This document shows positions 29,255 to 40,698 of a stretch of DNA of 44,947 nt, one piece after another. The position numbers and the translations under genes were made by a program. Source of the DNA: an uncultured Desulfosoma sp. (GTDB taxonomy: Bacteria; Desulfobacterota; Syntrophobacteria; Syntrophobacterales; DSM-9756); the NCBI GenBank assembly GCA_937960435.1, contig CALGPN010000036.1, positions 1-44,947 on the forward strand. The letters run 5' to 3'. The first letter of the stretch is position 1. Each line of letters begins with the position of its first letter. The notes beneath the pieces are model-generated. The model was not told the origin of the DNA. It worked only from the letters and a program-made list of their open reading frames with translations, and ran no database searches.

Positions 29255-29893
29255 TTAAACGCGCCGTGCCCCGGATGGGGAAACAGACAAACCATGAGAT
29301 TTTAGGAAAAGACGAAGCCCAATGGGGTCCTGATAGAGGTGCGACACCAAACCCAGGGCAGTAGCCGCGTCCACATTCTCTTGCGCATCGTCCACAAAGA
29401 GGACCTCCTGGGGACGCACTTTCAGCCGATCCAGAACCAATTCGTAGGCCTCCTTAGAGGGTTTGCGCACGCCTTCTTCCGCAGAACAAAAGACGGCGTC
29501 CAACATCGCCAGCACCCCCCATCGCTTCAACCACGATGATAACCCTCGAGGAGCGTTCGATAAAACCGCCAAGGACACCTGCCCGTAGAGGTTGCGAATC
29601 ATGTCGATGACCGGCGCGTTGGGTCTTTCGTCCCCATCGTAACGGGCTCGGAAAGCCTCCACGGCCTGAGGATCATGCAGACCAAGTCGAGGCCCGATGA
29701 TCCGCCAGTAGTCATCGAGGCTTCGGCGCCCCAAAAGGGTGTCTTCCCACACGGGATCGTCAAACATGATGCGGTTGAGACTCCCCGCGGGCAGCTTGAG
29801 CTCTTTTTCGTAGCTTTCAAAAAGAGACGGGGGTTTGGGCGCGGAGATCACCCGCCCAAAATCGAACAACACCACGCGCGGTCGGTTCCGCAC
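29255..29893 (-). CDS. HAD-superfamily hydrolase (YihX/epoxide-hydrolase-like group)
   Basis: A 212-residue HAD protein. Motif I is [10 protein letters not shown] (second Asp replaced by Gly, as in YihX-like members), motif II is AVLSNAPRG, motif III is the lysine in [12 protein letters not shown] and motif IV is [14 protein letters not shown]. The helical cap between motifs I and II is of C1 type. A GTG at 29893 with AAGGAT seven bases upstream is the preferred start; an upstream GTG at 29932 lacks a ribosome site. It is 43 bases ahead of the CoA-transferase, probably one transcript, and divergent from the operon at 29971. Substrate unknown. Confidence 0.85.
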
Positions 29894-29970
29894 CTTGTCA
29901 TCCTTTTTTAACGGCTTTAATTTTATGGGCACGCAAACGCCAAAACCTGGAAGAGGCAGAGTTCATCGAA

Positions 29971-31320
29971 ATGAACCAATTGACCCATCCGCATGGGCCG
30001 CCTCCCATGCCGTCAGGAATTTTAGTCCTCATGGGATCGGGGGAATTGTCCGCCAGTATGGTGGAAGTCCACAAATCCCTTCTTCGAACCAGACGTCCCG
30101 ATTCATCGGCCGTATTTATCGACACCCCGGCCGGATTTCAACTGAATGTGGAAGAGATTTCTCAACGGGCTCAAGAGTACTTCCAGTCCCGTGTCGGCCG
30201 TCCTTTGCTTGTGGTCTCTCTGAAATCCCGCCAGGAAATGGACACGGTCCAAGGTCGCCAAGCCTTGAAGCGATTGCAGCAGGCCGATTACATCCTCATG
30301 GGTCCCGGAAGCCCCACTTACGCCGCTCGACACTGGATCGGTTCGCCGGTGCCCAACCTTCTTCGATCCCGGTTGGCCGACGGGGCGATCATCACCGCCA
30401 GTAGCGCCGCCGCCCTCAGTATCGGCTGGAAGACGCTTCCCGTTTATGAGATCTACAAAGTCGGTATGGATTTGCACTGGACGGACGGGATCGACCTCTT
30501 GGAACCCTGGGGACTGCGCCTGGTCATCGTCCCGCACTGGAACAATGCGGAAGGCGGTACGCACGACACCCGCTTTTGCTACATGGGCAAGGCACGGTTT
30601 CAGGTTTTGGAGAGCCTGCTTCCCGACGAAGCCATGGTGGTTGGCATCGACGAGCATACGGCCCTCATTTTGGATTTCGCGCAAAGAGTCGCCGCCGTTC
30701 GCGGTGTGGGCACCGTGACTTTGAGAAAAGTCTCCATTATGCATGAAAAGGTGTTTTCCTCTGGAGACACTTTCCCCTTGGATCTTCTGTGGACTTTAAG
30801 CTCCGAGGCTGCGAAAGTGCCGGACGATTTCGAGCGGTTCCAAGACTCGGCGGCGGATCCATCCGTCGCTTTAGTCAAAGACTTGGAAAATCCCGCGCAG
30901 CCGGGGGCCACGCCTGCACTGGAAGATTTTTGGAAGACGCTTCGCCACTCCGAAGATCTTCTGGATCGTGGTCTCAAAAACCGCGATGCAGGAGAAACGG
31001 CGCGAGCTTTGCTGGATTTGGACCGACTCTTGTGGCACGCTTCGATCCACGGTGCGCCTCCGGACGACATTTCCCAAGGCCGTGAAGTTTTCCGAGAATG
31101 GCTGGTCCAGACGGCTCAGCGTCTGGTTTTGTCTCCCGAGGACAAACGGAAGGTTTTGGAACCTCTCGTGGAAGACCTGGTGCAGCTCAGACAACGGTTT
31201 CGACAAAAACACCTGTGGGATGCCGCCGATGCCTTGCGCGACCTTCTTGCCGCTCAAGGCGTCGTCGTCGAAGATACGCCCTCGGGCCCGCGTCGGCGTT
31301 GGGTTGATGGGGAAGGATAA
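29971..31320 (+). CDS. S51-peptidase/GATase-like protein fused to a CysRS C-terminal-type domain
   Basis: A 449-residue two-domain protein. Residues about 15-270 show the peptidase S51/cyanophycinase fold: GILVLMGSGELS, VFIDTPAGF, YILMGPGSPTYAARHW and the nucleophile elbow ITASSAAALSIG, where Ser145 aligns with the catalytic Ser of GxSAGA. A glutamate or dipeptide-type hydrolase activity is possible. Residues about 310-449 (ARALLDLDRLLW, then LVQLRQRFRQKHLWDAADALRDLLAAQGVVVEDTPSGPRRRW) match the C-terminal helical domain of cysteinyl-tRNA synthetase; the synthetase catalytic domain is absent. It is the first gene of the operon with the acyltransferase, MshA-like and PIG-L genes. Only a weak ribosome site precedes the ATG. 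Confidence 0.8.
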   Translation: MNQLTHPHGPPPMPSGILVLMGSGELSASMVEVHKSLLRTRRPDSSAVFIDTPAGFQLNVEEISQRAQEYFQSRVGRPLLVVSLKSRQEMDTVQGRQALKRLQQADYILMGPGSPTYAARHWIGSPVPNLLRSRLADGAIITASSAAALSIGWKTLPVYEIYKVGMDLHWTDGIDLLEPWGLRLVIVPHWNNAEGGTHDTRFCYMGKARFQVLESLLPDEAMVVGIDEHTALILDFAQRVAAVRGVGTVTLRKVSIMHEKVFSSGDTFPLDLLWTLSSEAAKVPDDFERFQDSAADPSVALVKDLENPAQPGATPALEDFWKTLRHSEDLLDRGLKNRDAGETARALLDLDRLLWHASIHGAPPDDISQGREVFREWLVQTAQRLVLSPEDKRKVLEPLVEDLVQLRQRFRQKHLWDAADALRDLLAAQGVVVEDTPSGPRRRWVDGEG

Positions 31321-32341
31321 GGTCGTGGGAAGGGAATGGGCTGAAACGGCGGTCACCATCTCCGATCAACTGGATCCCCTATGGCACACGTGGCGAAACG
31401 CCCGCCATCTGTTCAACGGCTGTCCTTTGTTTGTCACGCCGCCGTGGCTGAACGCTTGGCACAACACTCTAGGCCGCGACACCTCATTGAGCCTTTTGAT
31501 CGTCCATGGCCCCGGCGGCGTGGAAGGCTATGCCCCTTTGAAGGTCTTTCAAGGGGTCGGTTGTTTTGCCGGGGATCCCGAGGTGTGCGATTACTTTGAC
31601 GTGGTCGCCACGCGGGGAAAAGAAGATGTCGTGTGCCGAGCGCTTCTCCAAGCGGCCCGTCAAGCGGGTGTGAGAGCTCTGGATCTTTTCCCGGTGCGGC
31701 CCACCTCGGCGGTCATCACCCACATGGTCCCCCTGTGCCGCGCTTTGGGATACACCCTGTCCGTGGAACGCACCGATGTCACGGTGGAAATGCCTCTCGA
31801 CGGGTCTTGGGAAGGGTACCTCCGAAGCCTCAATGGAAAACAACGTCACGAAGTGCGCCGAAAAATGCGTCGGCTGCAAGAGGCCGGTTCCGTCGACTTT
31901 CGGGTCATCACCTCAGCGGACGGACTGGAACCGTCTCTGCACGTTTTCTTCGACCTCTTTCAAAGGAATCGCGACGACAAGGCGCAGTTTTTGACCCCAC
32001 CCGTCAAGGCCTACCTGGAAACCCTCTGCCGCAGCATGGCTCGGGAAGGCATGCTTCGCCTTTCCGTCCTTTCCCTGAATGCATCTCCCGTAGCGTCGGC
32101 TCTCTGTTTTGACGATGCTCAAGCCCTGTTCCTTTACAACAACGGCTATGATGCCGCTTTCGCCGCTCTCAGCGTCGGGCTCATGCATACCGTCTTCACC
32201 ATCAAAGACGCCGTGGAGCTTGGGCGCACACGGTATGAATTCCTGCGCGGTGACGAAAACTACAAAATTCGATTGGGAGGAAGGGAAGTCCCCTTGTATC
32301 GCGTGCGGATCTCTTTAAACACGCCTGAGGGAATCCTCTGA
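31307..32341 (+). CDS. FemAB/BioF2-type acyltransferase (GNAT fold)
   Basis: A 344-residue protein of the BioF2-like/FemAB acyltransferase group. The N-terminal half has FVTPPWLNAWHNTLG and EGYAPLKV; the C-terminal acetyltransferase half has NGKQRHEVRRKMRRL, then LRLSVLSLNASPVASALCFDDAQALFLYNNGYDAAFAALSVGLMHTVFTIKDAVELG and a final YEFLRGDENYKIRLGG, where the FLRG-x5-K ending is typical. Such enzymes transfer acyl or aminoacyl groups to amines. The ATG at 31307 overlaps the previous gene by 14 bases without a ribosome site; a GTG at 31325 with GGAAGG upstream is an alternative. In context it could acylate or aminoacylate the amino-sugar made by the next two enzymes. Confidence 0.82.
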   Translation: MGKDKVVGREWAETAVTISDQLDPLWHTWRNARHLFNGCPLFVTPPWLNAWHNTLGRDTSLSLLIVHGPGGVEGYAPLKVFQGVGCFAGDPEVCDYFDVVATRGKEDVVCRALLQAARQAGVRALDLFPVRPTSAVITHMVPLCRALGYTLSVERTDVTVEMPLDGSWEGYLRSLNGKQRHEVRRKMRRLQEAGSVDFRVITSADGLEPSLHVFFDLFQRNRDDKAQFLTPPVKAYLETLCRSMAREGMLRLSVLSLNASPVASALCFDDAQALFLYNNGYDAAFAALSVGLMHTVFTIKDAVELGRTRYEFLRGDENYKIRLGGREVPLYRVRISLNTPEGIL

Positions 32342-32355
32342 AAAACGGAAAGTAC

Positions 32356-33822
32356 ATGCCCATGGGCCATCGGTTCCCGTTTTCGTCACGAAAACCCGTG
32401 GAAACGGATCGACATCAAAGTGCTCGACCGCTTCGTATCGCCATGATCTGTGCCCATTCCAACCCGCTGGGCCCTCTTGGACGCCGAGATACGGGAGGCA
32501 TGAGCGTCTACATTCGGGAAATGTCTCGAGCCTTGGCTTCCCTGGGGCATATGGTGGATCTCTTCGTGGGAGAACCCTTGGACGGGTCGAGTTTTCAAAA
32601 GACTGATGACTCCGCGGAAGCCCTGTATCGGCATTTAGGACCGAATGTTCATTGGGTCTCCGTGCCGTGCCCGACCACGGCCCCTCAAGATCCCGGCGAA
32701 CAAATCAAAACGGCGACAGCTTTTCGCCGAGCCCTCCTGACGGCGTCCCGATATTCGGTCGTACGGACGAAGGCTTCGGCTTTCCCCGCCGAGCCACATG
32801 GCCCATGCCGGGCCTGGGCCGAGGCGAAGGAACGCCCCTTCGACATTGTCTTCAGTCATTATTGGCTTTCAGGACTAGCCGGCCTGACCACGGCGAAAAC
32901 CCTGGACGTGCCGCATGTGATGATGTTTCACACCTTGGCCCGCTCCAAGGCTGAAGCTTTGGGGCGGCCCGTGGATGGTTCTTGCCGCCTCTGTGCTGAA
33001 CACTGGCTGGCCTCCCAAAGTCATGGCCTGCTGGCCCCCACCAATGCGGAAAAGGAATCTCTCGTCACCCAATACGGCGTTTCCCCTTACCGCATCGCCG
33101 TGGTCCCGTGCGGCGTGGATGGAAATCTCTTCCGACCCAAAGACCGCGATTCGGCCCGTCGAGATCTTGGGCTCCCTCTGGATGAAGTGGTCTACCTTTT
33201 CGTCGGTCGCCTCGATCCCATCAAAGGTTTGGACCGCCTTCTCGAGGCCTTTGCCCGGCTTCCCCGTTCCGTGCCGGCACGATTGCTGGTGGTGGGCGGA
33301 GATGCTTCCGAAAAAAAATCTCTTGAAACCTTGCACGACATCGTCAAAGACAGGGGCATCTCTCAGCGAGTGAACTTTTCGGGTCGAGTGGAACAGGCTC
33401 GGCTTCCGGAATTTTACGCCGCCGCCGATGCCCTGATGATTGCTTCCCATTACGAAAGCTTTTGCCTGGTGGCTTTGGAAGCCCTGGCCTCGGGAAGACC
33501 CGTGGTGGGGCCTCCCGTAGGGGTCTTGCCGGAAGTGCTGTCCGAACCGAAAGCCGGCGTACTCCTTCGAGACAACAGCCCCGAAGAACTCCTTCGAGGG
33601 CTCACGGCCATCGCCAGGGACCGCCGAGAAACCAGCAGGTATTCCGGCGCGGTGTGCCGCCAAATTGCTCAGCGTTACTCGTGGCACCGGGTGGCTCAGG
33701 ATTTGGCCCGTACCTTGGCCGATCTTGTGAATTCCAAGGGGATTTCCGCAGCTTTAAGGAGAGACATAGCCAATGGATCCCGTTTATGCTCTCGTTGTGG
33801 CAGCGCATCCGGACGATCCTGA
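32356..33822 (+). CDS. GT4 glycosyltransferase resembling MshA
   Basis: A 488-residue retaining glycosyltransferase with GT-B fold. N-domain: RIAMICAHSNPLGPLG, RDTGGMSVYIREMSRALASLGHMVDLF and HYWLSGLAGLTTAK...MFHTLARSKAEALG. C-domain: VVPCGVDGNLFRP, YLFVGRLDPIKGLDRLLEAF, VNFSGRVEQARLPEFYAAADALMIASHYESFCLVALEALASGRPVVG, with the nucleotide-binding E-x7-E. GGM-VY plus HYWLSG and HTLA-K are hallmarks of MshA (UDP-GlcNAc:inositol-phosphate GlcNAc-transferase) and sucrose-phosphate-synthase-like enzymes. GGAAAG precedes the ATG. The gene overlaps the PIG-L gene by 50 bases. The acceptor is unknown. Confidence 0.9.
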   Translation: MPMGHRFPFSSRKPVETDRHQSARPLRIAMICAHSNPLGPLGRRDTGGMSVYIREMSRALASLGHMVDLFVGEPLDGSSFQKTDDSAEALYRHLGPNVHWVSVPCPTTAPQDPGEQIKTATAFRRALLTASRYSVVRTKASAFPAEPHGPCRAWAEAKERPFDIVFSHYWLSGLAGLTTAKTLDVPHVMMFHTLARSKAEALGRPVDGSCRLCAEHWLASQSHGLLAPTNAEKESLVTQYGVSPYRIAVVPCGVDGNLFRPKDRDSARRDLGLPLDEVVYLFVGRLDPIKGLDRLLEAFARLPRSVPARLLVVGGDASEKKSLETLHDIVKDRGISQRVNFSGRVEQARLPEFYAAADALMIASHYESFCLVALEALASGRPVVGPPVGVLPEVLSEPKAGVLLRDNSPEELLRGLTAIARDRRETSRYSGAVCRQIAQRYSWHRVAQDLARTLADLVNSKGISAALRRDIANGSRLCSRCGSASGRS

Positions 33823-34465
33823 ATTCGGCGCCGCAGGCACCGTCGCCAAATGGACACGCGAAGGGAAAAAGGTCGCCTACGTCATTTGCACGGACGGGGA
33901 CAAGGGGACAAACGACCGGTCCATGGACCCCGAGGAACTGGCCCGCATCCGCCAGGAGGAGCAGCAGGCGGCCGCCCGTGTTCTCGGGGTTCAGGATGTG
34001 GTGTTTTTGCACTACCCGGACCAAGGCTTGGAGGACACCCCAGAGTTTCGCAAGGAGGTGGTGCGATGGATCCGGCATTTTCGGCCGACCATCGTGCTCT
34101 CTTCGGACCCGTACCGACGTTACCTCTGGCATCGGGACCATCGCATCGTCGGCCAGGTGGTCATGGACGCTCTGTTTCCTTACGCTCGGGACCATCTCGC
34201 CTACCCCGACCTCCTGGCCCAGGGGTTGGAACCCCATAAGGTCAAGGAAGCCTGGTTTTGGGCGGCCGAAGACATCAATCACCGGGAAGATATCAGCGAA
34301 ACCTTCGACATCAAGATCGCGGCCCTGCAGCGCCATGCCAGCCAATGGAACGCTCATCCCGTGCGGGACATCCGCGCGTGGGTGGAAGAACGGTTTCGAA
34401 AAGCCGCCCAGGGGACCCCTTACACCTATGCGGAAGGATTTCACCGGGTGCTTTTGCCCGACTGA
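33773..34465 (+). CDS. PIG-L/LmbE-family N-acetylglucosamine deacetylase
   Basis: A 230-residue zinc deacetylase. The metal site is formed by AAHPDDPEFG (His and Asp near residues 12-14) and HRDHRIVG (His near residue 125). The fold otherwise matches MshB/BshB/LmbE: VAYVICTDGDKGTNDR, LHYPDQGLEDTPEF, RPTIVLSSDPYRRY. It should remove the N-acetyl group from a GlcNAc conjugate. The start overlaps the upstream glycosyltransferase by 50 bases, the same functional order as MshA-MshB, so it most likely acts on the product of that enzyme. GGAG lies 11 bases before the ATG. Confidence 0.92.
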   Translation: MDPVYALVVAAHPDDPEFGAAGTVAKWTREGKKVAYVICTDGDKGTNDRSMDPEELARIRQEEQQAAARVLGVQDVVFLHYPDQGLEDTPEFRKEVVRWIRHFRPTIVLSSDPYRRYLWHRDHRIVGQVVMDALFPYARDHLAYPDLLAQGLEPHKVKEAWFWAAEDINHREDISETFDIKIAALQRHASQWNAHPVRDIRAWVEERFRKAAQGTPYTYAEGFHRVLLPD

Positions 34466-34785
34466 TCTCCTCGGTCCAGACATCGGCCCAGGGCGCCGAG
34501 CGTTGGCTTAACTGCACAAAAAAGCCGCTGCGCAGACGAAAGAACGGGGCGGCCCTGTCACAAGACGCAACCTCTCTGGGTCCAGCCGTTAAGGCTGTTC
34601 GAGGAGGCGCAAACCCTTTTGTGCCGATTCGGCAGGAATTCCCAACGTGCCGAAACAATGAGATCACGGCTCAAGCCGCGGGCACGTTTTAGGGCAACAA
34701 TCAATCAAAGTCGCCAAGAGGGTGATAGGCCTTTTTCAACCACATTCCGGTGGGGCTCGCTGGAGTGTAGATGAACGATGGAAGA
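34466..34785. other. Intergenic region, convergent genes
   Basis: 320 bases between the convergent PIG-L and NifX-like genes. Only short imperfect dyads are visible (for example CCAC/GTGG around 34740-34753); no T-rich terminator, RNA gene or coding region is supported. Confidence 0.4.
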
Positions 34786-35115
34786 TCACCTCAGAAAATG
34801 ACGAACAATATCGGCCACGGGACCGGCCCAGTCGCTGAGCACCTTCACCCCCCGGCGCTCCAAAAAGGCCCGGGCCCGTTTTTCAATGGCCCCGCACACG
34901 AGCACTTGGGCGCCGAGGGCCAGCACCTTTTCCAGCTTTTGCTGCAGGGACTGTTCCACCACCTGCAAAGGGACATGAAGGCGCACACGGCCTTCGTGAA
35001 TGACGTAAAAGAGAATTTCCCGCGCCGCGGAAAAATGCGGCGCCACATCGGGCCCAAAGCTCAGAATGGCCAGTTTCAAAAAACCGCTTTCAGAGGAGGG
35101 GATGAAACCAAACAC
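34786..35115 (-). CDS. Small NifX/NifB-like (dinitrogenase iron-molybdenum cofactor) domain protein
   Basis: A 109-residue protein with the alpha/beta fold of the Nif FeMo-cofactor family: LAILSFGPDVAPHFSAAREILFYVI at the N-terminus (with the APHF-type motif), then VLALGAQVLVCGAIEKRARAFLERRGVKVLSDWAGPVADIV. Stand-alone members bind Fe-S or Fe-Mo clusters; outside nitrogen fixation their role is unclear. A GTG at 35115 with GGGAGGG just upstream is the start. It begins 13 bases after the sigma-54 regulator gene ends, and this pairing recurs in sulfate reducers by my recollection. Confidence 0.75.
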   Translation of the reverse strand: MFGFIPSSESGFLKLAILSFGPDVAPHFSAAREILFYVIHEGRVRLHVPLQVVEQSLQQKLEKVLALGAQVLVCGAIEKRARAFLERRGVKVLSDWAGPVADIVRHFLR

Positions 35116-35128
35116 GAAGCCCTCCCGT

Positions 35129-36508
35129 TTAGGAAATGCCGTAGCGCTTCATTTTCCTCCACAAAGTCGCCCGGCTGATGCCCAATTCCTGAGCCGCCTT
35201 GATGCGGTTGCCTTTGACCCGGCGCAGTACCCATCGAATGGTGCGCTCTTCGGACGAAGCCAGCGGAGAGAGTTCACTGTTTTCCTGGCGCTGGCGTACT
35301 TTGCGCACCATATCCATGGGCAGGTGTTTTGCTTCGATGGTTGTGCCGGAACAAAGCACACAGGCATGCTCCACGATGTTTTCCAGCTCCCTGACATTCC
35401 CGGGGAAGTCGTAATTCATCAAAAGGGCCAGGGCTTGATCGGAAAAATCGCGGATGTTTTTTCCCGAAACGGCGTTGTGCTTTCTCAGGATGTGGCGGGC
35501 CAACAAGGGAATGTCCTCCCGCCGTTCCGCCAGAGTGGGCAGACGAATGCCGATGACGTTGAGCCGGTAAAAGAGATCGGCTCGAAAAGTCCCCGCTTCC
35601 ACCTGTTGTTCTAAGTCCACGTTGGTGGCAGCCACAATCCGCACATCGGCAGAGACCGGTTCTGTGGCTCCCAAAGGCACAAAAACCCGTTCTTCCAGGA
35701 ACCTCAGGAGCTTCACCTGAAGGGCCGGCGACATGCACCCCACTTCGTCGAGAAAGAGGGTGCCGCCATCGGCGGCCTGCAACCGCCCCGGTTTGTCTTT
35801 TTTGGCGTCGGTAAAAGCCCCCTTGCGATATCCAAAAAGCTCCGATTCCAAGAGGCTGTCCGGGATTGCACCGCAGTTGAGCTTCACAAAGGGGCCGTCG
35901 CGGCGTGGACTGAGTTGATGGATGATCCGCGCCAACATGCTCTTTCCCGTACCGCTTGCTCCTTGGATCAAAACCGTGCTGTGGCTTTCCGCCACCACGG
36001 GCAAGAATTCCAAAATTTCCTGCATGACCGGGTTCTTGCTGACGACTTCGCCGAAGTGGTACGAGCCATTGAGGACTCTGCGCAAGTCTTCTTCGACGCT
36101 GCAATCCCGAACCACTTCCACCGCCGCCACCACCTGCCCCTGACTGTCTTTGATCGGCGAAATGGAAATACTTACGGGGATTTCACGCCCCTCACGAGTC
36201 ACGATACTCGCGGAACGATCACGAACGGCTTGAGCCGTTTGAAAAACAACTTCGAGAGGACATTGCGTCAGACACAGGTTGGAACGCAAAATATCGTAGC
36301 AGGGTCGTCCTAGAGCTTCGTCGACACGAAAACCCGTCAGGTGCGCAGCGGCTTTGTTGAAGAAATCCACGATGCGCCGATCCTTGAGCACCATAAAGAC
36401 GGCGTCGTCGATGCTGTCCAAGATCAAGCAACACGTATTGCCGTCTTTGACCAAGGAGCAAAGCAGCGGCACACGCTCCGACAGGTCATGAGGATCTCGA
36501 TCGTTCAT
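35129..36508 (-). CDS. PAS-domain sigma-54-dependent transcriptional regulator
   Basis: A 459-residue bacterial enhancer-binding protein. A PAS domain (residues about 20-140, ILDSIDDAVFMV...FFNKAAAHLTGF) contains a Cys-containing stretch (SNLCLTQCPLE). The AAA+ domain has Walker A GASGTGKS, the sigma-54 loop GAFTDA (consensus GAFTGA), Walker B GGTLFLDEVG and an arginine-finger region (FRADLFYRLN). The C-terminal Fis-type helix-turn-helix is KGNRIKAAQELGISRATLWRKMKRYGI. No receiver domain is present, so the PAS domain is the likely sensor. The ATG at 36508 is chosen over an upstream TTG. It is expected to control its own operon with the NifX-like gene. Confidence 0.92.
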   Translation of the reverse strand: MNDRDPHDLSERVPLLCSLVKDGNTCCLILDSIDDAVFMVLKDRRIVDFFNKAAAHLTGFRVDEALGRPCYDILRSNLCLTQCPLEVVFQTAQAVRDRSASIVTREGREIPVSISISPIKDSQGQVVAAVEVVRDCSVEEDLRRVLNGSYHFGEVVSKNPVMQEILEFLPVVAESHSTVLIQGASGTGKSMLARIIHQLSPRRDGPFVKLNCGAIPDSLLESELFGYRKGAFTDAKKDKPGRLQAADGGTLFLDEVGCMSPALQVKLLRFLEERVFVPLGATEPVSADVRIVAATNVDLEQQVEAGTFRADLFYRLNVIGIRLPTLAERREDIPLLARHILRKHNAVSGKNIRDFSDQALALLMNYDFPGNVRELENIVEHACVLCSGTTIEAKHLPMDMVRKVRQRQENSELSPLASSEERTIRWVLRRVKGNRIKAAQELGISRATLWRKMKRYGIS

Positions 36509-36845
36509 GCTCAAAAGCTTTCGTTCCAAGATGTCGATCCGGGACAGCCCCTCGGGGAGGGCCCTCGCCGAAGGGCCGGTCCCTTAAATCTCAAGGATCG
36601 ATGTTTCTCGAGACGTTCATTCAGCTTCGCCAGCCGCTCCGACTCATGATCGCCGACGGTTTTTGTTGAAGGATCCCGATGCCCCCATCTTTCCCAACGA
36701 CCCTCGAGCCATCCCAACGGTCCGTCCCCCCCAAGCTCGTCGGCCACGAACCGCCCACTCCAAACTTTTGGGCTGCCCATTGCTTGAAAGTTTCAGACTA
36801 AACCTTTGATTCGGCAAAAAAGTCCCCCGGGTTTTGCGGGCATCA
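36509..36845. other. Intergenic region upstream of the sigma-54 regulator
   Basis: 337 bases between two minus-strand genes. Just past the NadE-like stop, on the minus strand, a short CCCG/CGGG hairpin is followed after GGA by CTTTTTT (about 36815-36840), a weak candidate terminator. No -24/-12 element was found. An 89-codon ORF on the minus strand has no recognisable features and is not called. Confidence 0.35.
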
Positions 36846-37811
36846 TCACGGAGGGATTTCCGTCAGTGCCCGGTCCTGAAAACCTCGTCCTCCAGGCTGT
36901 GCTTCTTTTTCCCTACTCAAGGTTCGAAGCCTCCTGAGATGCTCCACATAAGCTTTCCGCACAAACGGCCGAAATCGCCTCAGAGAAGCACGCCCCATCC
37001 TCCGGACCTCATGGGTGAGAGCCCCAAGGACGGCTTCGTTGGTCCATCCGTTGTTGAGAGCGAGGAGAACGCGGTCGACGAGTTCATAGGGGCCCAAAAA
37101 GTCTTCGTCCCGAACCCCCCCGAATCCGGGCGATGGGCTTTGTTCCAGAAGAAAGCCGGGAAGATTGAGAAACCGGGCGAGACGTCGAACTTGAAACTTG
37201 TAAAGGTCGGCCAAGGGGGCCCAATGCCCGAAACGGATGTCATCAACGCCCTGTTCGACAAAGTAGCCCAATTCCCGCTCCGTCCGGTTGGCGCAGTTGA
37301 CGATGGCGGCCCCGAGGTCGGCTGCGAGAGTTTCCAAAATCGCGCGCCGCACGCGATGGGCCATGAGAAGGCGTTCGTAGTGGCGATGAAGCCACGTCCC
37401 ATTGTGGGAACCTTTAAGACGCCCCATGAGAGCCCAGAGTATGCTTTTCGGTGCCATACGAACGAGCGCAACCATCCCCCCTACGGTGACCCAATAGGGG
37501 GGGAGGTGAAGCGGTTTTTCACGCTCAATGATTTCATTCGTAATATCGATGGATTTCAATTCGGCTCCGAGGTCTTTGTAGAGCTTCGGATTGTAATGTT
37601 CTCCTCGGAGCCGCCGATCGATCATTTGCACCGCCAAGACCCGTACCCCTGCCGTTACGCTCAAGGCGGTGCACACCGCACTGTCCAGCCCCCCGCTCGC
37701 CCCTAGAATCACCATTCCAAATGTGCCGGCGGATACCTCGTCGTGGATCTTCCGCTTCCACGAGCTCACGAACTCCGCTTCCCACGGCCCCGGCGGCCCG
37801 TCAAGAATCAT
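36846..37811 (-). CDS. NAD synthetase-like (NadE/PP-loop) ATPase
   Basis: A 321-residue N-type ATP-pyrophosphatase. The P-loop is VILGASGGLDSAVCTAL, and the C-terminal half follows NadE: NCANRTERELGYF, FGHWAPLADLYKFQVRRLARFLNLP, SPSPGF...DEDFLGPYELVD. It should adenylate a carboxylate, canonically NaAD, and amidate it with ammonia; there is no glutaminase domain. The middle (about residues 95-150, APKSILWALMGRLKGS) differs from standard NadE. An ATG at 37811, 19 bases after the radical SAM gene stop, is the best start; a GTG at 37844 overlapping that gene is possible. Coupling to a radical SAM gene suggests a dedicated biosynthetic role. Confidence 0.8.
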   Translation of the reverse strand: MILDGPPGPWEAEFVSSWKRKIHDEVSAGTFGMVILGASGGLDSAVCTALSVTAGVRVLAVQMIDRRLRGEHYNPKLYKDLGAELKSIDITNEIIEREKPLHLPPYWVTVGGMVALVRMAPKSILWALMGRLKGSHNGTWLHRHYERLLMAHRVRRAILETLAADLGAAIVNCANRTERELGYFVEQGVDDIRFGHWAPLADLYKFQVRRLARFLNLPGFLLEQSPSPGFGGVRDEDFLGPYELVDRVLLALNNGWTNEAVLGALTHEVRRMGRASLRRFRPFVRKAYVEHLRRLRTLSREKEAQPGGRGFQDRALTEIPP

Positions 37812-37830
37812 CGATCCGCCGGCTTTGTTT

Positions 37831-39282
37831 TCAACAGGCTTCACGCAGCCGAACCTCTCGTTCCCACTCCGGATCCAAGACTTCCTGCAGACGACAATCG
37901 TAGTCGATGAATCGCTGCAGATACGCGTCGTCTTCGATGGCACCGGCGGCTTCCGCGTTGAGAGCTCGCGCCTGCGTCTTCGTGATGATGGTTCGGGCGG
38001 CCGCATGATGATCGCGGATAGGACACGGTCGAAAGAGATTCTGCACCCGTTCCGGAGGTTGATGGTATCCGTATTCCCCCTGCCAGGACCGGATTTCCCT
38101 GAAAAGCGGAGACTTCAGAGCTTCTGTAAGACTCAAGCCCTTTTCGTAGAGTTCGTAAACGTTGTCCAAGTAATAGGGGAAGAACACACATGGGGCGATG
38201 TTCCCGTTCCAGTCCACATGGAGGTAGCCTCCGGGACGACCGGCCGCGATACAGCCCAAGGATAAAACGCCGCCGTTCCAAAAGTCGACGTAGAAATATC
38301 CTTTTTCCTTCAAGATATGGAGCTCCCTCTGCAACATCCACAGTCGCTGCTCGGGAGTGACCAGGAGATCAAAAGAAGCATCTCGGCCGATGGGCATATA
38401 TTGAAAGATCCAGCCGTAAAGAGCGCCTTGCTCTTCAAAGAAGAAATCCAAGAAACGGTCCGAAAGGATCTGCTCGGCATTGCGCCGCGTGGCCGTTACC
38501 GAAATCCCGAAAGGAACCCCTGCTTCACGCAAAAACCTCATGGCTTGCAAAATTTTCGCAAAAGTGCCTTTGCCTCGCCGAGCATCCGTTTCTTCCTCAA
38601 AACCTTCGACGGAAATGGCCGGAGTGACGTTGCCCGCCTGCGCCAGTCGATCCGCAAGGGTTTCGTTGATGAGCGTCCCATTGGTAAAGGAGAGGAAATA
38701 CTGATCGGGATGTCGGGCGATGATCTGGACAAGGTCCATGCCGTCACTCCGGTAAAGAAAGGGCTCGCCTCCTGAGATGACGGTAAAATGGGATCCCCAC
38801 GCTTCCGCCTTTTCTTGAAGGATGCGCTGAAAGACAGCACCATCCAAAGATTTGGAAAAACGGGAACGATCCCCTGCGTAGCATCCCAGGCACCGGAGGT
38901 TGCAGTTTTCGGTGGGGCTGATGACCAGAAAGCTCGGCGGTTCAAACCCATGAACGGCGGCAAAGGCCCGAATTTTTTCCGGATCGCCCAGGACAAACCT
39001 TTCCACAAAGGTCTCCGTCAGCATGGTCAGGGGCTTGTGGGAAATCAGTCCCCTTTGGGCGCCTCGAGCCCCGGCATAAAGCAGGTTCTTCATGCCGATG
39101 AAGCGCAGTTGTTGGACCTGATGGGGCCGACCTTCGGGGTTTTCCACAACGATGTAATCATACAAGGACTTTTCGAGAAACTTCATCGTGTAAGGGCGAA
39201 ACCGATCGTTCCTCAACCCGAAGCCCAAAAGCCCCCTCTTGACTTTTTCCCGGAGAGTTCGCCGCGTCATTTGAGCCGACAT
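37831..39282 (-). CDS. Radical SAM protein with C-terminal cysteine-rich region
   Basis: A 483-residue radical SAM enzyme. The cluster motif is PTENCNLRCLGCYAGD (CxxxCxxC), followed by VISGGEPFLYR (GGEP) and the SAM-fold strands (LSFTNGTLINETLADRLAQAG, AISVEGFEEETDARRGKGTF). The C-terminus has further cysteines (SLGCIAAGRPGG, IAPCVFFPYYLDN, FRPCPIRDHH), like a SPASM/Twitch-type auxiliary cluster site. About 120 residues precede the radical SAM core. The ATG at 39282 has AAAGGAGG seven to eight bases upstream. It is the first gene of a two-gene operon with the NadE-like ATPase. The reaction is unknown; the group resembles peptide- or small-molecule-modifying enzymes. Confidence 0.87.
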   Translation of the reverse strand: MSAQMTRRTLREKVKRGLLGFGLRNDRFRPYTMKFLEKSLYDYIVVENPEGRPHQVQQLRFIGMKNLLYAGARGAQRGLISHKPLTMLTETFVERFVLGDPEKIRAFAAVHGFEPPSFLVISPTENCNLRCLGCYAGDRSRFSKSLDGAVFQRILQEKAEAWGSHFTVISGGEPFLYRSDGMDLVQIIARHPDQYFLSFTNGTLINETLADRLAQAGNVTPAISVEGFEEETDARRGKGTFAKILQAMRFLREAGVPFGISVTATRRNAEQILSDRFLDFFFEEQGALYGWIFQYMPIGRDASFDLLVTPEQRLWMLQRELHILKEKGYFYVDFWNGGVLSLGCIAAGRPGGYLHVDWNGNIAPCVFFPYYLDNVYELYEKGLSLTEALKSPLFREIRSWQGEYGYHQPPERVQNLFRPCPIRDHHAAARTIITKTQARALNAEAAGAIEDDAYLQRFIDYDCRLQEVLDPEWEREVRLREAC

Positions 39283-39326
39283 AACCGAACCTCCTTTCCT
39301 CGCGTGAAACTTTCTAAGGTACTGCA

Positions 39327-39355
39327 TTTATAAGCATCACGTCGACGTTGCTCAA
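39327..39355 (-). promoter_or_regulatory. Sigma-70 promoter of the radical SAM-NadE operon
   Basis: On the minus strand TTGAGC (39355-39350) and TATAAA (39332-39327) are separated by exactly 17 bases. The start point would be near 39320, giving a leader of about 38 bases before the ATG at 39282. Confidence 0.6.
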
Positions 39356-39393
39356 GTGCAACAGTCTCACACTATACGTTTCACTTCTGAGAC
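39347..39393. promoter_or_regulatory. Two dyads overlapping and flanking the -35 element
   Basis: GTTGC (39347-39351) and GCAAC (39358-39362) form a dyad over the -35 hexamer. Next to it GTCTCA (39364-39369) and TGAGAC (39388-39393) form a second dyad with an 18-base centre. Placement suggests an operator, though no regulator can be named. Confidence 0.45.
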
Positions 39394-40056
39394 ACTTAGC
39401 GGCTCTTTTCCCCCTTGCCAAAAAGCTGCGGCGGCGCCCGCTCATGCCGATCCCTTGAAAGGGTCTCTGGAATGCGAGAAAGGATTTGGCTTCTGCTTGG
39501 GTTCCCGATGTGCGGCTTTCCGGTCCTGAGCGGACCTCAAAAAACCGGGATCGAGTCTCGGCGCGTCCCTTTCGATTTCATTCAAACGCCCCTTCGCCTC
39601 ACGCCCCCGTCCTACGGTGAACTTGGTGAATGCCGTAAACGGCAGCGCTCCACAAGGCTTTCCCCCATCGCGGTTTCTCGAGGAAGGCATCACCACCCCG
39701 AGGTGTGCATGGAGGAAGCCTCCTCGCCTCCTCCTCTTAGAGCCCCTGACCCCACGCGCCTCCCTCAGCTCTCCCGATATGGGGAATGCGCCCTTTTCAA
39801 CCATTTTTTAAGCAAAACACATGCCGGATCTTTGGAACCTTACGGAAAAAGCGATCCCCGTTTCGTCAAGCCCCTTGTGCCGGGGCCGCATCGCCAAAGC
39901 AACGCCGTTCGGCCCCATCGGCAACTTACGGAAAAATCAGACAGGTTCGGAAAAAACTGCGCCGCCGCGGCTTTCAAAGCACCGCCGCATGGCTGCCATC
40001 GACCGTGAATGAGCCGAAAAAGGGTGTCGTTTTTTAGCTTTTTGACGGGTGAGGAA
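39394..40056. other. Intergenic region without supported genes
   Basis: About 660 bases between the radical SAM promoter and the MBL-hydrolase gene. ORFs of 120-200 codons exist on both strands but are arginine/proline-rich, lack ribosome sites and show no domain pattern. Nothing recognisable was seen. Confidence 0.4.
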
Positions 40057-40698
40057 TCACTCGTTCCAGACCACGTCCCCGCAGAGATTTTCCGGGTAGC
40101 CCCGACGAAGAAACGCCATGAAAGCTCTTCGTTCATACCCCACGTTGGTCGGAGCGCCATGACCAGGAAACACGAGGACGGTATCCGATAGGGTAAAGAT
40201 TTGCCGCTTAAGAGAATCCAGAATTTGGCGGAAAGCCTCGGGAGTTTCCGTTCGCCCCGGCCCGTTGGGAAAAAGCGTGTCTCCGGAAAAGAGCACATTC
40301 TGGAAGGAAAGACAGAGACTCCCGGGCGTGTGGCCCGGAGTGTGAAGGAGACGCACGCTCAAGGACCCCAAAAGAATATCCCCGTCCTCGTGGAACAGCC
40401 CGCGAGGGCTCACGGGAAGTCGAGGCGCATCCAGAGCGTGAACCCAGACGGCAACACCCGTTTTTTCCACGAGACTCTTCAGCCCCTGCGTGTGATCGCC
40501 GTGGCCGTGGGTGATCACCACGGCGCTCAGAGGCCCCTGGAAGGGGATGGTGTCGATCCCCAGGGGCGCGTCAATCAGCAGCACGCTCCCCGTTTTCCGG
40601 CATACCAGCTCATAGGCATTCACCGCGTAAGGGCCCAAGGTGTAGCGCGTGACCAGGGCATCCCCCAGAGTCAACAAAACACCGTCTTTCAGCCCCAT
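40057..40698 (-). CDS. MBL-fold metallo-hydrolase (glyoxalase II-like)
   Basis: A 213-residue metallo-beta-lactamase-fold protein with all metal motifs: VITHGHGDHTQG (HxHxDH), LLHTPGHTPGS, LFSGDTLFP and LVFPGHGAPT. It is shorter than hydroxyacylglutathione hydrolase (about 250) and lacks its C-terminal domain, so a thioester hydrolase or sulfur-handling role is possible but unspecified. The ATG at 40698 has AAAGGA six to seven bases upstream. It lies 85 bases downstream of proS on the same strand. Confidence 0.88.
   Translation of the reverse strand: MGLKDGVLLTLGDALVTRYTLGPYAVNAYELVCRKTGSVLLIDAPLGIDTIPFQGPLSAVVITHGHGDHTQGLKSLVEKTGVAVWVHALDAPRLPVSPRGLFHEDGDILLGSLSVRLLHTPGHTPGSLCLSFQNVLFSGDTLFPNGPGRTETPEAFRQILDSLKRQIFTLSDTVLVFPGHGAPTNVGYERRAFMAFLRRGYPENLCGDVVWNE

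Follow-up and report, generated by a model that had tools for sequence, protein, structure and literature searches.

Mycothiol is a protective molecule. On a 44,947-nucleotide stretch of DNA from an uncultured Desulfosoma sp. (the whole stretch is called the window below), four genes recall its biosynthesis, and the question is what they make. The answer bears on which thiol buffers serve most anaerobes that have neither glutathione nor bacillithiol. The cluster occurs in several unrelated bacterial groups and resembles a rebuilt mycothiol pathway in which the usual cysteine-attaching enzyme has apparently been replaced by one that borrows its amino acid from tRNA. We give even chances to the reading that its product is a glucosaminyl-inositol carrying an aminoacyl group, and most likely a low-molecular-weight thiol resembling mycothiol; the pathway logic is well supported. 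Gene conservation, linkage, and family and fold assignments were computed directly, as was the result that no MshC exceeds its cut-off.

Four tightly packed genes form a conserved unit

All four open reading frames named in a preliminary description of this DNA were found on the + strand. The cluster begins with an S51-like protein of 449 aa (29971..31320), which combines an S51 (cyanophycinase/peptidase E) fold with a CysRS anticodon-binding arm. It is followed by a FemAB/FemX-type double-GNAT transferase (31307..32341), presumably an aminoacyl-tRNA-dependent ligase acting on GlcN-inositol, and by an MshA-like GT4 glycosyltransferase of 488 aa (32356..33822), which is presumed to join GlcNAc and inositol phosphate. 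The last gene encodes a PIG-L/LmbE deacetylase of 230 aa (33773..34465) that presumably frees the glucosamine amine. The S51 and FemAB genes overlap by 14 bases, 14 bases separate FemAB from GT4, and the 50-base overlap of GT4 and PIG-L that had been described was confirmed from the coordinates. Upstream, a HAD-family hydrolase gene (29255..29932, - strand) is the divergent neighbor of the S51 gene, likewise in L032, L033, and L039. A GloB-like hydrolase of the metallo-beta-lactamase fold (40057..40698, - strand) adjoins PIG-L in the three nearest relatives (L032 to L034) and is displaced in the window. The stretch between the two genes (34466..40056, no strand), missing in all three relatives, is either an insertion in the window or a loss in L032 to L034, and lies outside the system. 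We rejected the presence of a tRNA-Cys gene, as ARAGORN found no tRNA anywhere in the window. An anti-phage system was also rejected, with no PADLOC match for any of the four proteins.

Conservation of the four-gene order across Desulfobacterota had been proposed as a check. The order S51/CysRS-arm, FemAB, GT4, PIG-L was kept in 12/33 S51-bearing loci of the phylum sample (the window and 11 of the other 32). The four-gene grouping is more than chance and is a real conserved unit, although the S51-arm protein does not belong to every version of it. FemAB, GT4, and PIG-L occurred together in 41/80 loci fetched with PIG-L and in 23 of the 33 with a PIG-L of at least 300 bits and enough flank; these loci were found by PIG-L search, and the linkage counts are therefore biased. 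Most low-scoring PIG-L relatives (<300 bits, most of L126 to L143) had neither FemAB nor GT4 within the stretches examined. In L074, L107, and L114, PIG-L stood with an MshD-like gene and a hydrolase, without FemAB or GT4 in the stretch examined. Judged by the length and content of their contigs, two named loci duplicate members of the phylum sample (L087 = L037 and L108 = L046), and Fisher values are uncorrected for relatedness. The cluster is not confined to Desulfobacterota: record titles of the loci fetched with PIG-L name Desulfobacterota, Chloroflexi, Nitrospirae, Aminicenantes/Acidobacteria, and Bacillota, labels that come from metagenome-assembled genomes and may include binning errors, although the records holding L064, L065, L077, L079, and L111 bear the title chromosome.

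The glycosyltransferase is MshA-like

The hallmarks of MshA pointed out earlier in the GT4 (GGM-VY, HYWLSG, and HTLA-K) are all present. Its best NCBIfam match was MshA (TIGR03449, 245.6 bits, below the equivalog cut-off of 462.5), nearer than any other GT4 family; the distant second was GlcN-phosphatidylglycerol synthase (NF053787, 106.6 bits). All 46 GT4 relatives scanned matched the MshA profile. At the MshA acceptor site, where we take the roles of single residues from general knowledge, M24, Y110, T134, R154, and S317 were kept in 75/75 GT4s; the positions of M24, T134, and S317 differ in SPS. The K78 column holds K or R in 40/46 relatives and, in two further counts, in 19/19 and 9/10; the window's GT4 has P there. 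This column and that of R154 are shared with SPS Arg105 and Arg178, given as acceptor-phosphate arginines in the excerpt of PMC7264703 used here.

The deacetylase matched the PIG-L Pfam family with 122.6 bits. It fell below the MshB equivalog level (TIGR03445, 46.6 vs 224.35), and its best NCBIfam score was to BshB1 (110.1 bits, cut-off 182.5). Bacillithiol biosynthesis (BshA, BshB1/2, and BshC) likewise uses a GT4 and a PIG-L enzyme, but the GT4 scored 245.6 bits to MshA vs 97.1 to BshA. BshC was absent from the window's genome and was detected in 1 of the 24 genomes examined, which carry the cluster or part of it, and in 2/297 of the phylum sample. Because BshC is lacking, the bacillithiol pathway was rejected. 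The window's genome also had no GCS2 or GshA; among the 24, two carried a ligase of either type (GCS2 in G305 and G315, GshA in G305).

Linked genes of the mycothiol type

The parallel with mycothiol that had been drawn gained support from other loci. An MshD-like double GNAT lay within 1 kb of PIG-L in 22/80 loci. TIGR03448 (MshD) at E<=1e-15 matched 7/24 genomes, with the cluster gene as the single match in each and none over cut-off; among 14 controls, C. glutamicum alone matched. Ino1 of the mycothiol_INO1 type was linked in 9/80 loci and 9 further loci, and an inositol monophosphatase was linked in 7 loci. The parallel is partial: the matches to MshA, MshB, MshD, and Ino1 types all lie below NCBIfam equivalog cut-offs, and the TIGR03448 search found no MshD-like gene in the window's own genome. 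The only Ino1 there is unlinked and longer, and it matched no NCBIfam family at E<=1e-10. Ino1 is also present in genomes of the same order without FemAB. The GloB family acts on thiol esters; a GloB-like metallohydrolase was found in 32/80 loci and lay within 1 kb of PIG-L in 29/80.

In Actinobacteria, mycothiol is made by Ino1, MshA, MshA2, MshB, MshC, and MshD. The cluster shares with this pathway the MshA-like GT4 and a deacetylase of the PIG-L superfamily, and in some lineages the linked Ino1, inositol monophosphatase, and MshD-like double GNAT. It differs in its phyla, in the sub-equivalog scores, and in its enzymes: no MshC exceeds the cut-off (0/20 genomes, and none in the window's genome; 1/14 controls, taken to be C. 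glutamicum), and the FemX-type and S51-CysRS-arm proteins are there instead. The excerpt of PMC6282198 used here states that mshA-D occur in Actinobacteria only.

The FemAB-like protein resembles aminoacyl-tRNA-dependent transferases

The preliminary description had guessed that the FemAB-like enzyme performs the aminoacyl step, and both the lack of any MshC over its cut-off and the predicted fold favor this. The protein matched PF13480 with 114.5 bits and FemAB_like with 28.4 (cut-off 27). Foldseek ranked Sbb17/Sba18, titled aminoacyl-tRNA-dependent peptide synthases, first to third for its model. Z scores were 22.2 to FemA, 21.8 to FemX, and 21.5 to Sbb17, vs 15.1 to the best CoA-type tandem GNAT, and all but one of the matches with Z 17.8-22.2 were Sbb17/Sba18, FemA, FemX, or MprF. 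By its predicted double-GNAT fold, nearest FemX/FemA, the enzyme is thus closest to the aminoacyl-tRNA-dependent transferases; PF13480 is a broad family, so this closeness may hold for the whole of it. When PDB sequences were searched with a profile built from the FemAB alignment, all matches were at chance level and none was a FemABX enzyme.

With FemABX ligases (FemX, Orf11 of BD-12, Sbb17/Sba18, and DhpH-C), the enzyme shares the fold, a similar length, and perhaps a conserved aromatic-Lys pair near the C-terminus. Unlike them, it belongs to PF13480 and not to the FemAB Pfam family proper, and it is linked to inositol-glycoside genes. Tyr319 was kept in 92/92 and Lys320 in 91/92 aligned proteins, at least three of them duplicates; judged by position, Lys320 may correspond to the catalytic Lys305 of FemX and Lys329 of DhpH-C.

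The S51-CysRS-arm protein is an accessory gene

The C-terminal domain of CysRS had been recognized in the S51-like protein without the catalytic domain, and Pfam and the model bore out both points. CysS_C (PF23493) covers residues 396-437 (23.4 bits, cut-off 23). In the predicted model, residues 321-445 align with 333-461 of 1u0b (Z 8.1, with an rmsd of 10.9) and seem to match the whole CysRS C-terminal arm, beyond the last domain alone. The other half was sub-threshold for Peptidase_S51 (17.7 vs 23.9), and its model adopts the S51 fold, with Z 25.3 to 6nqc. Each half thus shares its fold with a known protein; we know of no described protein that fuses the two. Ser145, His189, and Glu228, which we take to be the catalytic triad from alignment and general knowledge of the family, were invariant in 21/21 homologues, although ASSAAA surrounds the serine instead of the usual GxSAGA. 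The arm residues R407, R411, D420, R423, and D435 were likewise all kept in 21/21.

Because it has no CysRS catalytic domain, this protein was rejected as the cysteine ligase. A FemAB scoring 160 bits or more accompanied it in the same genome in 30/33 cases, vs 18/264 other genomes. The S51 homologue had no FemAB, GT4, or PIG-L beside it in 16/32 phylum-sample loci, and 13 of those 16 genomes carry a FemAB of that strength at another site. The gene is missing from 18/48 FemAB-bearing genomes. As it is absent from some versions of the cluster, it is accessory, presumably a handler of tRNA-Cys.

A proposed pathway and its alternatives

From these assignments we infer all substrates, the identity of the amino acid, and the order of steps. 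Ino1 would supply inositol phosphate, onto which the MshA-like GT4 would transfer GlcNAc. The phosphate would be removed by the inositol monophosphatase in one family and perhaps by the HAD enzyme near the window's cluster, which could, speculatively, be the missing GlcNAc-Ins-P phosphatase. After PIG-L deacetylation to GlcN-inositol, the FemX-type enzyme, rather than MshC, would aminoacylate the sugar amine from an aminoacyl-tRNA, most likely Cys-tRNA. In some lineages the MshD-like enzyme would acetylate the product, and the GloB-like hydrolase may act on thioester conjugates. The S51-CysRS-arm protein would recognize tRNA-Cys for delivery or quality control. The product would be a thiol if the added amino acid is, as seems probable, cysteine from Cys-tRNA. 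The full proposal, a multi-phylum thiol pathway in which a FemX-type ligase joins cysteine from Cys-tRNA to GlcN-inositol, the first such tRNA-dependent pathway, with the hydrolase-CysRS-arm fusion as its dedicated tRNA-Cys partner, is tentative, and we put it somewhat short of even chances.

On the same GlcN-inositol core, FemAB could add a group other than cysteine, from another aminoacyl-tRNA or an acyl-CoA; the product would then not be a thiol and might be an aminoacyl or acyl glycoside used as head group or solute. PF13480 is named an acetyltransferase family, mycothiol-type S-transferases (PF11716) occurred in only 2/24 genomes, and the CysRS-arm protein is not found with every FemAB. 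Natural-product FemX-type enzymes, moreover, draw on Gly-, Leu-, Ala-, or Ser-tRNA in the portion of PMC12945691 used here. We nevertheless consider this possibility unlikely: FemAB keeps company with a protein bearing a CysRS anticodon arm, a hydrolase of a thiol-ester family often lies beside PIG-L, and CoA-dependent GNATs score below tRNA-dependent enzymes in fold.

Two further readings appear improbable. Ordinary mycothiol might be made if MshC had diverged, with cysteine ligated by a CysRS paralogue encoded at another genomic site and FemAB performing a side step. Arm-less CysRS-like proteins of 408-424 aa do occur in G276, G301, and G309, close to the 411 positions of the MshC profile, but they score higher against CysRS (TIGR00435, 271-321 bits) than against MshC (175-182) and are limited to 3/20 genomes. 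G299, G302, G304, and others have a single CysRS-like match, and the gene linked to GT4 is FemAB, not a CysRS. Equally doubtful is a role in modifying exopolysaccharide, LPS, or phosphoinositide. GT4, PIG-L, and FemAB-like families are common in surface-polysaccharide and glycolipid clusters, and the second GT4 match is a glycolipid synthase; MshA is nevertheless the top GT4 family. No Pfam family recurred in more than 3 of 104 flanking ORFs (33 loci; 104 of 158 candidates), and the 25 flanking families listed included no flippase, polymerase, or extra glycosyltransferase.

Among open-licence PMC papers, our searches listed no title or abstract describing a pathway of the proposed kind. If true, the tRNA-dependent route to a mycothiol-like thiol would tie translation to redox chemistry, and the inositol monophosphatase, which adjoins GT4 in all 7 loci where it is linked, would be suggested as the phosphatase for the MshA2 step.

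Four-gene cluster in the window and its relatives in the phylum

Four closely spaced genes were confirmed on the + strand at 29971-34465, as the preliminary description had it. By matches to Pfam/NCBIfam families, gene 1 encodes an S51-like protein (449 aa) with a CysS_C domain, and family matches identified genes 2, 3, and 4 as a PF13480/FemAB-like protein, a GT4, and a PIG-L protein, respectively. The successive spacings are a 14-base overlap, a 14-base gap, and a 50-base overlap. Among the best 80 loci of 550 PIG-L relatives, the nearest named ones were titled Deltaproteobacteria. A GloB-like metallohydrolase gene (40057-40698) is separated from the PIG-L gene by a stretch that is missing from three loci (L032, L033, and L034), where the hydrolase adjoins PIG-L. 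The insertion relative to these loci (34786-39327, - strand) encodes an NAD-synthase-like and a radical SAM protein, as well as a sigma-54 activator and a protein with a nitrogenase-cofactor-type domain.

Relatives of gene 1 (E below 1e-49) were detected in 33 of the 297 genomes of the phylum sample. Setting the window aside, 11 of the 32 S51 loci showed the order S51-FemAB-GT4-PIG-L on one strand; in one case two Gfo/Idh/MocA oxidoreductases were inserted. The S51 gene was alone at 16 loci; of the remainder, one lacked GT4, one had S51 apart on the opposite strand, and three were cut by contig ends. The FemAB profile matched 48 of the 297 genomes at ≥160 bits and 59 at E≤1e-20. FemAB occurred in 30 of the 33 genomes with S51 compared with 18 of 264 (Fisher 2.6e-25, with genomes counted as independent despite their kinship).

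Several side features were observed around S51. At least two Gfo/Idh/MocA oxidoreductases, one with a ThuA-like N-terminal part, were encoded near S51 at loci L041, L045, L050, L064, L065, L068, L090, and L109, and such genes lay between S51 and FemAB at L041, L045, and L064. A candidate nucleoside phosphorylase gene, assigned by eye, followed the S51-CysRS-arm gene in 8 of 8 loci of one family (L047, L048, L049, and L051-L055). A shorter second S51 protein that has the classical GSSAGA motif but lacks a CysRS arm was encoded close by at L050, L068, L071, L090, and L109.

Other versions of the cluster were seen among 31 FemAB loci fetched outside the four-gene loci: hydrolase-FemAB-GT4-inositol monophosphatase (family f23), FemAB-GT4-PIG-L (f42 and others), FemAB-GT4-Ino1 (f31 and f90; nine loci, with Ino1 adjoining GT4 convergently), and FemAB-GT4 only (f24). 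In the window's genome, Ino1 lies on a separate contig in a longer frame, and none of the NCBIfam families matched it at E≤1e-10. Because Ino1 is common in the phylum (167 of 297 genomes) and same-order genomes that lack FemAB have it too, the tie of Ino1 to the window cluster is weak, although FemAB-bearing genomes overall nearly always carry it (46 of 48 vs 121 of 249 others).

Resemblance of the GT4 to MshA

The MshA profile TIGR03449 matched 46 of 46 GT4 members at E≤1e-20 (best 3e-110). Against the PDB, the GT4 profile scored 359 bits with MshA and 350 bits with sucrose-phosphate synthase (SPS), so near-equal that the overall score cannot tell the two apart. By contrast, single residues in the alignment do set the cluster GT4s with MshA and not SPS: M24, T134, and S317 of MshA are kept in 75 of 75, where SPS has Q, S, and P. 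Y110 and R154 are likewise kept in all 75. Arg105 and Arg178 of SPS are described in sections of PMC7264703 as binding the acceptor phosphate, and the MshA K78 and R154 columns align with them. The K78 column is P in the window GT4, within a divergent loop.

Clusters beyond the phylum

From the 550 relatives in the PIG-L alignment scan, the 80 best loci were analyzed. FemAB was present in 48 of these 80 and GT4 in 47; 41 carried all three genes, which shared a strand in 35 cases. By record title, the three-gene loci among these best 80 comprised Desulfobacterota-type (15/23), Chloroflexi (14/37), Bacillota (5/8), Aminicenantes (3/3), Acidobacteria (2/2), Nitrospirae (1/2), and one untyped. Within the same 80, an MshD-like double GNAT was found at 22 loci, each ≤1 kb from PIG-L; a GloB-like metallohydrolase at 32 (≤1 kb in 29); Ino1 at 9, all ≤3 kb away; and S51 at 11. 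MshD was the top NCBIfam match for 4 of 4 GNATs scanned (79-108 bits, below the cut-off of 163), as was mycothiol_INO1 for 4 of 4 linked Ino1 proteins (416-441 bits, below 638). Among 104 further flanking ORFs, none of the families listed (25 of 179 Pfam) recurred in more than three. Two PIG-L relatives on one 1.7 Mb chromosome record (CP070645.1; L114 and L125) had neither FemAB nor GT4 in the flanking stretch examined.

FemAB and S51-CysRS-arm proteins

The FemAB model (47 sequences; mean pLDDT 93.5, pTM 0.90) was nearest to FemA, FemX, and Sbb17/Sba18 (Z 20.7-22.2), followed by aminoacyl-phosphatidylglycerol synthases (17.8-19.5), and 2hqy, of unknown function, was interspersed among all these; tandem CoA-type GNATs (15.1) and MshD (2c27; 15.0) were lower. 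The top Foldseek rows were Sbb17/Sba18, with streptothrisamine bound in two of three entries. For the fold of FemX-type enzymes, tRNA-dependent aminoacylation of amino sugars is known chemistry, and in the Orf11 reaction glycine lands on the amino-sugar amine. The relevant portion of PMC12945691 describes Orf11 of the BD-12 pathway as converting streptothrisamine to glycylthricin with Gly-tRNA. Tyr319 and Lys320, kept in 92 of 92 and 91 of 92 alignment rows, are probably the counterpart of the FemX/DhpH-C Phe-Lys pair.

The model of the S51 protein was moderate (pLDDT 78.4, pTM 0.62). In it, residues 14-274 resembled cyanophycinase/peptidase E (Z up to 25.3) and residues 321-445 resembled CysRS 333-461 (Z 8.1, rmsd 10.9). 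By alignment, R407, R411, W416, D420, R423, and D435 correspond to E. coli CysRS R423, R427, W432, D436, R439, and D451, several of which presumably read the anticodon. Five of the six were invariant in 21 of 21 homologues, and W416 was kept in 20 of 21.

Other thiol routes and the proposed pathway

No match to MshD, BshC, GCS2, or GshA was found in the window's genome. We searched 20 genomes for MshC and 24 for BshC, GCS2, PF04262, and PF11716; three of these genomes have yielded no more of the cluster than its PIG-L, MshD-like, and hydrolase genes (L074 and L107 in both sets, L114 only in the 20). MshC was above the cut-off in 0 of 20 genomes, all of which matched its profile through CysRS. 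An armless CysRS paralogue (408-424 aa), scoring higher as CysRS than as MshC, was present in 3 of 20, on the + strand at L193:4729-5979, L194:5756-6979, and L195:5089-6360. A putative MATE-type transporter gene precedes it in L193 and L194. BshC was detected in 1 of 24 genomes, GCS2 in 2, and PF04262 in 1. Thiol-transferase domains (PF11716) in only 2 of 24 genomes argue against a wide mycothiol-like detoxification set.

Mycothiol synthesis has five steps, as outlined in part of PMC4360819. The linkage order of the genes points to a route resembling it, in which a FemX-type enzyme would stand in place of MshC; as stated in the available text of PMC2922099, Fem ligases use aminoacyl-tRNAs, whereas MshC does not. 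Two features, the GloB-like hydrolase and the CysRS arm, suggest that cysteine would be the amino acid transferred. The best explanation, to which we give an even chance, is that the cluster represents a variant form of pseudo-disaccharide thiol synthesis found in several phyla. Its main rival, which we consider rather doubtful, is a GlcN-inositol conjugate without a thiol. The mycothiol-like reading first proposed for the window is upheld in part and extended to several phyla as a variant of thiol synthesis, with cysteine at the level of a suggestion.

Cys-tRNA formation in Chloroflexi and others is treated in PMC8762117 and PMC5424206, whose accessible parts mention no cluster of this kind. 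At L191:2973-5516 (- strand; contig C2 of genome G000), a cysteine synthase (PALP) forms a fusion with an entire CysRS-like protein, DALR and CysS_C domains included. Frames of comparable size (~770-870 aa) that match CysS_C are found repeatedly in the phylum, both with and without the cluster.
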